A DNA stretch of 64,000 nt from Phaeobacter sp. CECT 5382 (GTDB lineage Bacteria > Pseudomonadota > Alphaproteobacteria > Rhodobacterales > Rhodobacteraceae): NCBI RefSeq assembly GCF_001457775.1, contig NZ_CYSG01000002.1:248001-312000 (forward strand). The letters are read 5' to 3'. Positions within the stretch are counted from its first letter, which is position 1; each line of letters opens with the position of its first letter. The position numbers and the translations under genes were made by a program. The notes below the pieces were generated by a model. It made no database searches and was not told where the DNA came from. It was given only the letters and a program-made list of their open reading frames with translations. Shown one piece after another: positions 21,909 to 29,928 of this stretch.

Positions 21909-24356
21909 ATGTCTGATTTTCCAACCAAGGCCCGCGTGGTCATCATCGGCGGCGGTGTTATCGGTGCCTCGTCGCTATATCATCTGGCAAAGAAGGGCTG
22001 GACCGATTGTGTGCTCTTGGAGAAGAACGAGCTGACAGCTGGTTCGACCTGGCATGCGGCGGGCAATGTGCCGACCTTCTCCACCTCCTGGTCGATCATG
22101 AACATGCAGCGCTATTCGACCGAACTCTATGCCCGCCTTGGTGAAGAGGTCGACTACCCGATGAACTATCACCAGACCGGCTCGATCCGACTGGCCCATA
22201 CCAAAGAGCGAATGCAGGAGTTCGAGCGCGCCTGCTCTATGGGGCGCTACCAAGGTATCGAGATGGAGATCTGGACGCCGGAACAGGCCAAGGAGCACTA
22301 TCCGTTCTTGGAGACCCATGATCTAGAGGGTGTACTGTGGGATCCATCAGACGGCGACATTGATCCGGCGCAGGTAACCCAGGCGCTGGCCAAGGGGGCC
22401 CGCGATATGGGGGCAAAGATCATTCGCTTTTGCCCTGCGACTGGTGTCACCCAAAAGGAAGATAAAACCTGGATCGTGCATACTGAAAAAGGCGATATCG
22501 CATGTGATTATGTGGTCAACGCGGCTGGTTACTACGCCCAGCGCGTCGGTGAGTACTTCAAACCCTATGGTGGTCGTACCGTTCCCATGATGGTGATGAG
22601 CCACCAGTATCTGCTGACCGAGCAAATCGATGAGATCGAGGCCCATGTCAAAGAGAGTGGTAAAAAACTGCCGCTGATCCGCGACGTGGATGTGTCCTAC
22701 TACCTGCGACAGGAAAAGAACGGCTACAACCTAGGCCCCTACGAGCCCAACTGCCGCGGTCACTGGATGAGTGAAGACGACCAGATGCCAGATGATTTCT
22801 CCTTCCAGCTTTGGCAGGATGATCTGGACCGGATCGAGGATATTGTTACCGATGCGATGGAGCGTGTGCCGCTGATGGCGACATCTGGAGTGTCCAGCGT
22901 ATTCAACGGGCCGTGAAAATAGGAGAAGGAGGGAAGGAAGAGGAGAGGAAAGAGGCCGGGTGTCGACAATGCCTTCGAGGCCTGCGTCTTTACCTTTGGC
23001 ATCGCCCAAGGTGGCGGTGCGGGCAAGGTGTTGGCGGAATGGATCGTTGATGGCCAAACCGAGTGGGACATGTGGTCGGTCGATCCGCGTCGCTACACCG
23101 ATTACACCGATCAGGACTATTGCGACCAGAAAGGCATGGAAGTCTATGGCAATGAATATGCCATGCATTTCCCCCATCATGAATGGCCCGCCGCGCGCGA
23201 CAAGAAGGTCAGTCAGGTCCATGCTCAGATCAAGGAAATGGGCGGTCAGATGGGGGCCTACAACGGCTGGGAACGGGCCAACTGGTTCGCCAAAGACGGC
23301 GATGACACCTCCGAGGAAGCCACCCATACTTGGGGGCGTTCAGGTCCTTGGCAGCAGCGCATCCAGGAAGAGTGCGAAGCGGTGCGCGATGGGGTAGGCA
23401 TCCTTGATTTGCCCGGCTTCTCGCGCTTTAACCTGACAGGTGAGGGCGCTGCCGAGTTCCTGCGCGGCATTGTCACTGGCGGTTTGCCCAAAGTGGGCCG
23501 GATGAATCTGGTCTATTTCTCGGACACTCGCGGCCGCATCCTGACCGAGATGTCCTGCGTGCGTCACGGCGAAGACCACTTCACCATGATCACCGCAGGC
23601 TCGGCTCAGTGGCATGATTTTGAGATCCTGAAAAAGGCGCTGCCCGCAGGTCTTTCCCTGACCGATCACACCACCGAGTTCGCAACCATGATCGTCAGCG
23701 GTCCCAAATCGCGCGAGCTCTTTGTCGGCCTGTCCGACGCTGATCTCTCCCTTGGCTGGCTGACCCATCAAAGCGCCACAGTGGCGGGCAAGCCCGCCTT
23801 CCTCGCGCGGGTGTCTTACGCCGGTGAGCTAGGCTGGGAAGTCCATTGTGCCAACGCCGATCAGGCCGAGATCTACGCGGCCCTGATCCAAGGTGGCGCC
23901 AAACCCTTTGGCATGTATGCGCTGAATTCTCTGCGGATCGAGAAGGGGTATCGCACCTGGAAGGGCGACCTTTCGACCGATTTCACCATGCTCGAAGGTG
24001 GTCTTGGCCGTTTCATCAAACTCGACAAGCCACAGGATTTTCCCGGCAAAGCCGCGATTCAGAATGAGTTGCAGCAGGGGTCAAGGAAAACCTTCGCCAC
24101 GATGATCGTTGACGCCGGTGATGCGGATGCGCCCTATATGTCCTGTATCTGGAAAGATGGTGAAATCGTCGGTGAGACCACATCGGGCGACTGGGGGTAT
24201 CGGGTTAATGCTTCGATCGCGCTGGGCACCCTGCGCACAGATTTGGCGGTGTCGGGTACCGAGGTTGAAATCGAGATCTACGGCAAAAAATGTCGCGCTG
24301 TGGTACAAGAAAACAAACCACTGTGGGATCCTGCCAACGAGCGTCTGCGCGCCTAA
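21909..24356 (+). pseudogene. FAD/GcvT dimethylglycine or sarcosine dehydrogenase-like gene, interrupted by a 42-base anomalous block
   Basis: One continuous frame of 816 codons carries two in-frame stops (TGA 22914, TAG 22920). The N-terminal half is a DAO-type FAD domain with VVIIGGGVIGASSLYHLA and TWHAAG. His49 is the residue that carries covalent FAD in dimethylglycine dehydrogenase. The C-terminal half holds the FAO_M linker and the folate-binding GcvT domain (AGELGWEVHC, LRIEKGYRTWKGDL). The family oxidatively removes N-methyl groups and passes them to tetrahydrofolate. Both stops fall in a 42-base, nearly all-purine block that replaces exactly 14 codons without shifting frame, so the gene may be intact in the real genome. 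Confidence 0.85.
22914..22955 (+). other. 42-base purine-only block inside the demethylase gene
   Basis: Apart from T at 22914 and 22920, every base is A or G. The flanks encode SSVFNGP before and PGVDNAFEACVF after, in the same frame. If each A may stand for C and each G for T, the block reads xPYAPDGLPLIGPM, which is the expected family sequence. The paralogue at 27478 has the same 17-residue spacing between NGP and DN. The likely cause is base-calling or consensus failure, not evolution. Confidence 0.75.
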
Positions 24357-27392: not shown

Positions 27393-27477
27393 CCGAGGCT
27401 TTCTGACGCTTTTCATGCATTTTGTGCCGCCTTGCAGTGATAATCAGGGGCAGCAAAGGTTCTTTCGGAGTGATGAC

Positions 27478-29928
27478 ATGAGCGAACTTCCTACACAGGC
27501 CCGCGTGGTCATTATCGGTGGCGGCGTTATCGGCTGCTCAGTTGCCTATCATCTGACCAAGCTGGGTTGGAAAGATGTGGTGCTGTTGGAGCGCAAGCAA
27601 CTGACCTCTGGCACCACTTGGCATGCGGCTGGTCTGATTGCGCAGCTGCGCGCCACCGCCAACATGACCAAACTGGCGAAATACTCGCAGGAGCTTTATG
27701 GCGCGCTGGAGGAAGAGACCGGCGTGGCGACGGGCTTCAAACGCTGTGGATCGATCACTGTGGCCCTCACCGAAGAACGCCGTGAAGAGATCTTCCGTCA
27801 GGCCGCCATGGCGCGCGCTTTTGGCGTTGATGTCGAAGAGATCTCGCCCGAGGAAGTCAAAGCCCGCTACGAGCATCTGAACATCGGTGACGTCACTGGC
27901 GGCGTCTGGCTACCCAAGGATGGGCAGGGGGATCCGGCAAATATCGCACTGGCCCTGGCCAAGGGCGCGCGTCAGCGTGGCGCACTGGTCAAGGAGCGCA
28001 TCAAGGTCACTGGCCTGTCAAAAGATGGCCGTCGGGTGAGTGGTGTCGACTGGGTCAGTGATGATGGCACGGCACAGGGCCATATCAAAGCCGACATGGT
28101 GGTGAATTGCGCCGGTATGTGGGGCCACGAGGTAGGCCGCATGGCGGGCGTCAATGTTCCGCTACATGCTTGTGAACACTTCTATATCGTGACCGAGGCA
28201 ATCAAGGGTCTCACCCAGATGCCGGTGCTGCGGGTGCCGGATGAATGCGCCTATTACAAAGAAGACGCCGGCAAAATGCTGCTGGGCGCCTTTGAGCCCA
28301 ACGCAAAACCCTGGGCGATGAAGGGCATTCCCGACACTTTCGAATTCGACCAGCTACCCGAAGATTTCGACCACTTCGAGCCGATTCTGGAAAACGCCTG
28401 CAACCGGATGCCAATGCTGGCCGAGGCCGGTATCCATACCTTCTTCAACGGGCCTGAAAGCTTTACGCCGGATGATGCCTATCATCTGGGTCTAGCGCCT
28501 GAGATGGACAATTTCTGGGTCGCGGCGGGTTTCAACTCCATCGGTATCCAGTCTGCGGGCGGCGCAGGCATGGCGCTGGCGCAGTGGATGGATGAGGGGC
28601 AGAAACCCTTTGATCTGGGCGACGTGGACATCTCGCGGATGCAGCCGTTTCAGGGCAACAAACATTACCTGTTTGAACGTTCCAAGGAAACGCTGGGGCT
28701 GCTCTATGCCGACCATTTCCCCTACCGGCAAAAGGCCACCGCGCGCGGCGTGCGTCGTACGCCGTTTCATCATCACCTTCTGGAGCAGGGCGCGGTTATG
28801 GGGGAGCTGGGGGGCTGGGAACGTGCCAACTGGTTTGCCAATGAGGGCCAGGAGCGTGAATACCAGTACAGCTGGAAGCGTCAGAACTGGTTTGAAAACT
28901 CAGCTGCCGAACACCGTGCAGTGCGCGAAAATGTCGGCATGTATGACATGTCCTCCTTTGGCAAGCTGCGGGTCGAAGGGCCAGATGCAGAGGCCTTTTT
29001 GAACTATGTCTGCGGTGCCAACCTGTCGGTGCCTGCGGGCAAGATCGTCTATACTCAGTTCCTGAATGCGCGTGGCGGCATCGAAGCGGATGTGACAGTA
29101 ACCCGCCTGACGGAAACTGCCTATCTGGTGGTGACCCCGGCGATTACCCGTCTTGCGGATGAAACCTGGATGCGGCGTCATCTGGGAGATCATCGTGTGG
29201 TGATCACCGATGTGACCGCGGGAGAAGGTGTTCTGGCCGTCATGGGCCCCAATGCGCGCAAACTGCTGGAAAAGGTCTCCCCCAATGACTTCTCCAACGC
29301 GGTGAACCCCTTTGGTACTGCGCAGGAGATCGAACTGGGCATGGGGCTGGCAAGGGTGCACCGGGTGACCTACGTGGGCGAGCTTGGCTGGGAAATCTAC
29401 GTTGGCGCGGATATGGCGGGGCACGCCTTTGAAACCCTGCACGCGGCAGGTCAGGACATGGGGCTGAAGCTCTGCGGTATGCATATGATGGACAGCTGCC
29501 GGATCGAAAAAGGGTTCCGCCATTTTGGCCATGACATCACCTGCGAAGATCACGTGATAGATGCGGGTCTTGGCTTTGCGGTCAAAACCGACAAACCCTC
29601 CTTCATTGGCCGCGACGCCGTGCTTGAGCGCAGGGAGACCGGCCCCAAAGCCCGGATGCTGCAATTCAAGCTTACCGATCCGGAACCGCTGCTTTATCAC
29701 AATGAACCGCTCATTCGGGATGGTGAGATCGTCGGCTACATCAGTTCGGGCAGCTACGGCCACACGCTGGGAGCGGCCGTGGGCATGGGCTATGTGCCTT
29801 GCGAGGGGGAAAAGGCAGCAGATGTTCTGGCCTCGACCTATGAGATCGACGTTATGGGCACCAAGGTGCGCGCCGAGGCCTCATTGAAGCCGATGTATGA
29901 TCCTAAATCTGAACGGGTGAAGGTCTGA
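27478..29928 (+). CDS. FAD/GcvT dimethylglycine or sarcosine dehydrogenase-like enzyme
   Basis: This is an 816-residue paralogue of the gene at 21909. The N-terminal DAO FAD domain has ARVVIIGGGVIGCSVAYHLT and TTWHAAG, with His49 expected to bind FAD covalently. The middle FAO_M region follows. The C-terminal GcvT part includes YVGELGWEIYV and the family's DSCRIEKGFRHFGHDITCEDH. It should oxidise an N-methylated amine and pass the methyl as methylene-THF. It lies 86 bases after the AraC-type regulator and has GGAG before its ATG. Divergence from its paralogue around the substrate region suggests a different methylamine substrate. Confidence 0.9.
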   Translation: MSELPTQARVVIIGGGVIGCSVAYHLTKLGWKDVVLLERKQLTSGTTWHAAGLIAQLRATANMTKLAKYSQELYGALEEETGVATGFKRCGSITVALTEERREEIFRQAAMARAFGVDVEEISPEEVKARYEHLNIGDVTGGVWLPKDGQGDPANIALALAKGARQRGALVKERIKVTGLSKDGRRVSGVDWVSDDGTAQGHIKADMVVNCAGMWGHEVGRMAGVNVPLHACEHFYIVTEAIKGLTQMPVLRVPDECAYYKEDAGKMLLGAFEPNAKPWAMKGIPDTFEFDQLPEDFDHFEPILENACNRMPMLAEAGIHTFFNGPESFTPDDAYHLGLAPEMDNFWVAAGFNSIGIQSAGGAGMALAQWMDEGQKPFDLGDVDISRMQPFQGNKHYLFERSKETLGLLYADHFPYRQKATARGVRRTPFHHHLLEQGAVMGELGGWERANWFANEGQEREYQYSWKRQNWFENSAAEHRAVRENVGMYDMSSFGKLRVEGPDAEAFLNYVCGANLSVPAGKIVYTQFLNARGGIEADVTVTRLTETAYLVVTPAITRLADETWMRRHLGDHRVVITDVTAGEGVLAVMGPNARKLLEKVSPNDFSNAVNPFGTAQEIELGMGLARVHRVTYVGELGWEIYVGADMAGHAFETLHAAGQDMGLKLCGMHMMDSCRIEKGFRHFGHDITCEDHVIDAGLGFAVKTDKPSFIGRDAVLERRETGPKARMLQFKLTDPEPLLYHNEPLIRDGEIVGYISSGSYGHTLGAAVGMGYVPCEGEKAADVLASTYEIDVMGTKVRAEASLKPMYDPKSERVKV

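Follow-up and report, generated by a model that had tools for sequence, protein, structure and literature searches.

Background

Several properties of Illumina sequencing bear on errors that stay within a base class. According to the initial annotation of this locus, a four-colour sequencer uses one laser to excite A and C and another for G and T; such sharing is in print for the HiSeq, for which A/C exchanges (29.2%) and G/T exchanges (26.8%) are given as the commonest substitutions and low-quality tails are described as region-specific and confined to one strand (PMC3334598). The A and C signals, like those of G and T, have also been reported to be correlated, with overlapping emission (PMC3163567). 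An instrument survey reports no clear signature of C/A plus T/G errors (PMC8002175), and in one HiSeq set a miscalled C tended to be read as G (PMC4787001). Two-channel chemistry labels C with one dye and T with one, A with both and G with none (PMC11140927). PhiX is a control often run with Illumina libraries, and it contaminates draft genomes (PMC4511556). Among the literature matches listed, we found no case of a C-to-A/T-to-G assembly artefact or of a purine-only pseudogene, which leaves the absence of such cases unproven.

A dimethylglycine-dehydrogenase-like gene with an interrupted frame

The window (the whole stretch of 64,000 nucleotides that was analysed) corresponds to positions 248001 to 312000 of contig C2, in an assembly of 4,112,935 bases and 56 contigs. 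In this assembly the frame of the gene at 21909-24356 is interrupted by two stop codons, TGA at 22914 and TAG at 22920. Both lie in the block at 22914-22955 which, as first described, consists of A and G throughout apart from a T at 22914 and another at 22920. The coordinates of the gene, its parts and its paralogue are collected in Table 1.

Table 1. Positions in the window of the interrupted gene, its parts and the control paralogue
Feature	Position	Strand	Remarks
Dimethylglycine-dehydrogenase-like gene, 5' half	21909..22913	+	FAD-dependent DAO domain, PF01266 192.6 bits; open until block
Stretch with isolated odd bases, before block	22889..22902	+	Orthologue base comparison at 22889, 22901, 22902
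Purine block	22914..22955	+	14 codons, 2 stops (22914, 22920); collapse complete from 22921
Gene 3' half, frame unchanged	22956..24356	+	Rest of FAD region, FAO_M, folate-binding GCV_T, GCV_T_C
Paralogue without interruption (control)	27415..29928	+	17 residues NGP to DN

When the two halves were scanned, the domains DAO, FAO_M, GCV_T and GCV_T_C were found in the order typical of dimethylglycine-dehydrogenase-like enzymes, each scoring above its Pfam gathering threshold; DAO precedes the block and the other three come after it. For both halves the best solved relatives are the dimethylglycine dehydrogenases 4p9s, 4pab and 5l46, in which the stretches matched by the two halves are separated by 14 residues, equal to the 14 codons of the block. 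The separately scanned halves yielded, among the matches listed, none that reached an NCBIfam cut-off naming the enzyme. Judged by its sequence, the product looks like a dimethylglycine dehydrogenase, an assignment that is putative as regards the substrate. The paralogue spacing given in the initial annotation was recovered when we counted residues on the translation of 27415-29928.

The nearest named orthologues, among the matches listed, are Pseudophaeobacter and related Roseobacter-group records, which makes Pseudophaeobacter the probable genus. Coral isolates of Pseudophaeobacter have been described that were sequenced on the NextSeq 550, with SPAdes as the assembler (PMC10439622). A separate observation concerns JAHVJD010000003.1, titled Nocardioides marinus DP1N28-1: a protein encoded in this record is of Roseobacter type and shares 92% identity with the 5' half of the window gene, and the record is probably a mislabelled assembly.

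The block compared with orthologous DNA

We compared the block with 86 orthologue loci, comprising 11 same-genus genomes and 75 of 80 kept loci drawn from at least 593 relatives; the other five kept loci were left out as copies of contigs already included. The block is 42 bases long in 86/86 orthologues, which bears out the claim that frame and length are kept exactly over 14 codons despite the two stops. At 26 block columns a single base is found across all 86 orthologues, and a map that turns C into A and T into G and leaves A and G unchanged accounts for 24 of these 26 columns (C>A 9/9, T>G 5/6, G>G 7/7, A>A 3/4). This map ranks best among all 256 possible letter maps. When the letters of the block were shuffled 200,000 times, no shuffle attained 24, and the highest score was 23. 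The decoding originally put forward, in which A stands for A or C and G for G or T, thus holds at 24 of the 26 invariant columns and breaks down at 22914, where 86/86 orthologues have A and the block has T, and at 22920, where T is kept.

The fit extends beyond the invariant columns. A compatible base occurs in at least one of the 86 orthologues at 40/42 positions, or at 39/42 if the 11 same-genus genomes alone are used, the extra miss being 22946. Fitted one relative at a time to the 42 positions, the 86 orthologues range from 39 (L004, the best) to 31, with a median of 36. The decoding does not depend on codons picked to suit it: the orthologue DNA itself shows the C-to-A and T-to-G collapse, and the pattern of the block is real and well past chance.

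The composition of the block is also rare. The longest purine run in the window is 35 bases, beginning at 22921, and the runner-up has 15. Apart from this run, purine or pyrimidine runs reach at most 21 bases in 59 stretches of the same genome that cover 1,167,477 of its 4,112,935 bases, and the run-length tail of these stretches predicts about 9e-5 runs of at least 35 per genome. Across 107 loci (486,745 bases, mostly from relatives) there are no runs of at least 18 beyond the two copies of the block locus. An insertion or replacement by purine-rich DNA that arose by chance and has no relation to the lost sequence would agree with the block being the longest purine run seen; against it, the length is exactly kept, and at the invariant columns where the block holds a purine, the orthologue base class predicts which purine in 24/24 cases (0.5 to the 24th, 6e-8). 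We regard such an insert as vanishingly improbable, and the 24/24 class prediction refutes it in practice.

The initial annotation had also proposed a scan for A/G-only islands elsewhere in the genome. No second purine island was found inside contigs in the 1,167,477 of 4,112,935 bases scanned, and so the collapse at the block is a local event. For the part of the genome scanned, the idea of many islands across it is accordingly rejected, with none other in 1,167,477 bases. A hairpin that stalls the sequencer was considered as well and rejected: a 10-bp stem is predicted in L004 and absent from L003, and folding is no better than that of shuffled sequences (z = 0.44 for L004, 1.04 for L003, and -0.45 and -1.25 for the two strands of the window).

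Conservation around the block

We aligned contig C2 to 400,000 bases of G008, the top-scoring same-genus match, and 260,345 of 367,477 bases aligned. Within the block, 21 of the 26 differences from G008 are C>A or T>G; the expectation that every difference from an orthologue would be of these two types was thus borne out for 21 and not for the remaining 5. The next independent place, among 257,680 fully aligned 42-base windows, has 9/20, and the opposite-strand change type reaches a maximum of 9 per 42-base window.

Outside the block, the window protein differs at only 1 of 414 residue columns that are at least 97% conserved, having Phe for Ile at 22902-22904. The numbers of differing near-invariant residues in the same-genus controls are 0, 0, 0, 0, 0, 1, 1, 1, 2, 4 and 13, and hence one change per 414 residues is nothing unusual among these relatives, 9/11 of which have 0 to 2. 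Relaxed selection beyond the block, a criterion for a pseudogene, was not found in this comparison of 1/414 with the same-genus controls. On these residue comparisons the gene outside the block does not look decayed, in keeping with the original proposal that it is probably intact and should not be annotated as a pseudogene.

The single Phe-for-Ile site lies four codons before the block, which is a suspicious place. Within 45 bases either side of the block, the bases unseen in the genus are all upstream, at 22889 (found in 0/86 orthologues), 22901 (3/86) and 22902 (0/86); the last of these gives Phe where Ile is otherwise invariant. These odd bases suggest that the disturbed zone begins before 22914, and their layout fits an uneven onset, a full collapse and a sharp end at 22955.

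The same evidence bears on the reading that the block is a true recent mutation, in which the cell's own DNA carries the purine-only patch and the gene has only just become a pseudogene. The conserved remainder of the gene is compatible with a very recent event. Against this, it would need approximately 22 transversions, all one-way and class-keeping, within 42 consecutive bases and with the length unchanged, and the same assembly contains poor read tails in which these errors are likewise in excess (see below). We know of no process that makes one-way, class-keeping transversions across adjacent bases, and we consider this reading highly improbable. Extremely improbable, in our judgement, is that the block is real DNA made by templated purine-purine copying of a 42-base patch of which one strand is almost all purines. 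Such copying would place A opposite G and G opposite A and so keep amino-to-keto pairing; no description of it is known to us.

State of the assembly

Contig C40 has 5441 bases, of which the first 1500 were tested and found to be identical to the PhiX174 record (1500/1500). From this control contig we infer that the assembly was made from Illumina data, and that it was left in the assembly is a sign of light quality control. The ends of C40 overlap by 55 bases, and the reads were probably assembled through a k = 55 graph.

Errors at contig tips could be read where tips overlap. The start of contig C8 (1-215) is chimeric: 53 bases match C4 from 80659 onward, and are followed by a homopolymer smear and then by true C8 sequence. 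C8:159-393 is the reverse complement of C6:4-238, with 89% identity, and the two represent one locus, since the C6 and C8 parts adjoin in relatives. The 50 central bases of the overlap (C8 214-263) are error-free. We read the tip errors outward, taking as true the contig that lies farther from its own tip. At the C8 tip 10/14 errors are C>A or T>G, and at the C6 tip 7/17 are; pooled, the two tips give 17/31 (p = 1.4e-6 against equal use of the 12 types). The C6-tip errors are mixed, including 5/17 A>C and 3/17 T>C. Relatives cover 12/17 of the C6-tip differences and 0/14 of the C8-tip differences (11 genomes, each entered twice, so that counts are doubled); at positions 334, 352, 394 and 396, where all the relatives share a base found in one of the two tips, that base is the one in C8.

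Not all tips behave in this way. Homopolymer smears occur at the C8 and C19 tips, with 77 and 46 bases per 200 in runs of at least 5, against a background maximum of 30 per 200 in C2 (1,837 windows of that contig); the C36 tip, with 28, falls inside this background. Compared with C4:80659-80762, C8:54-104 is smeared and slipped, and most of the changes are C>G or G>C. The C19 tip shows no C>A/T>G signature against C1:294406-294517, to which it is 87% identical with mixed changes, and this match in C1 may be a paralogue. Both comparisons stand outside the pooled 17/31, and both count against a uniform signature.

Other contig ends have features of their own. The end of C19 (L254:1130-1390) has a homopolymer smear followed by the stretch 87% identical to C1:294406-294517, and the end of C34 is 87.6% identical to the start of C20 over 833 bases. 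Many contigs share a few end sequences (the starts of C4, C9, C20, C21 and C41; the starts of C1, C12, C34, C35 and C37), a pattern that would be expected if the assembly broke at multi-copy elements, which may be insertion sequences.

Origin of the block

We consider it very likely that the block arose as a collapse in base calling that became part of the draft contig, and that the gene is whole in the cell. This is the explanation first offered for the locus, and it has gained from the class-keeping C>A and T>G differences from orthologues, from the conserved remainder of the gene, from the Illumina origin of the data and from the tails with the same excess at two tips. One or a few low-quality Illumina reads in the + direction would have crossed the block and, through some physical fault, would for approximately 41 cycles no longer have distinguished C from A or T from G, so that A was called for all C and G for almost all T. 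The bad call would have won the consensus where good reads were missing. Reads of the reverse strand would have left only T and C in the block, and therefore the collapse would come from reads of the + strand; likewise, the fact that odd bases within 45 bases are upstream only points to a read worsening along that strand. The read would have gone on cleanly past 22955, as the register would otherwise have been lost, and the source of the collapse would be the assembly's own bad read tails. Two-channel chemistry could possibly yield the block as well, only if the second image copied the first.

A software step could give the same letters, if, when the consensus was built or gaps were filled, each A-or-C ambiguity code had been written as A and each G-or-T code as G. 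The two-to-one map would be identical, and the exactly kept register, including the sharp end at 22955, would be accounted for. Such a step, however, still requires prior loss of the distinction between A and C and between G and T, and at the tips of C8 and C6 the collapse is incomplete and mixed with other errors, like raw calls. We consider it very unlikely.

Certain observations count against a base-calling collapse and call for caution. Positions 22914 and 22920 do not obey the rule, there is no second island in 1.17 Mb, and the C6-tip errors are mixed. From 22956 on, the sequence is clean and keeps its register, and recovery after approximately 41 bad cycles is odd for a read tail. Given that the instrument survey describes no clear signature of this kind (PMC8002175) and that miscalls of C went preferentially to G in one HiSeq set (PMC4787001), the collapse would be a rare failure and not the usual error.

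We ascribe the stops at 22914 and 22920 to an artefact, and on present evidence the gene at 21909-24356 should not be called a pseudogene. A likely false pseudogene is thereby removed from a dimethylglycine-dehydrogenase-like locus. The case indicates that a collapse of this kind can lie within a contig even when the draft is rated 100% complete, and that it can be recognised from sequence alone, as a conserved gene broken by stops in which the differences all fall within A/C and G/T; this class test is applicable to public assemblies. The block is almost certainly without biological meaning, and would represent new biology only if the low-probability reading of templated purine-purine copying were true.

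Comparison with known systems

The present assembly resembles the PhiX-contaminated drafts described previously (PMC4511556), contig C40 being such a contaminant; the block differs from these in that PhiX is a matter of contamination and not of miscalling, and marks the platform only. A run with a fault in the illumination by one laser is described in PMC4053729. As in the block, the A/C and G/T channels act as pairs, and error is very high at the read ends; unlike the block, the fault affected a whole run, in a test set, and what is available of that source describes no collapsed block in an assembly. The closest likeness in base classes is with four-colour Illumina errors (PMC3334598, PMC3163567), in which the same classes are confused and errors crowd in one region and on one strand, the cause being ascribed to shared lasers and overlapping emission. 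Those errors are scattered or remain at the level of reads, whereas the block is one-way, complete over approximately 41 bases, lies inside a contig and survived assembly.
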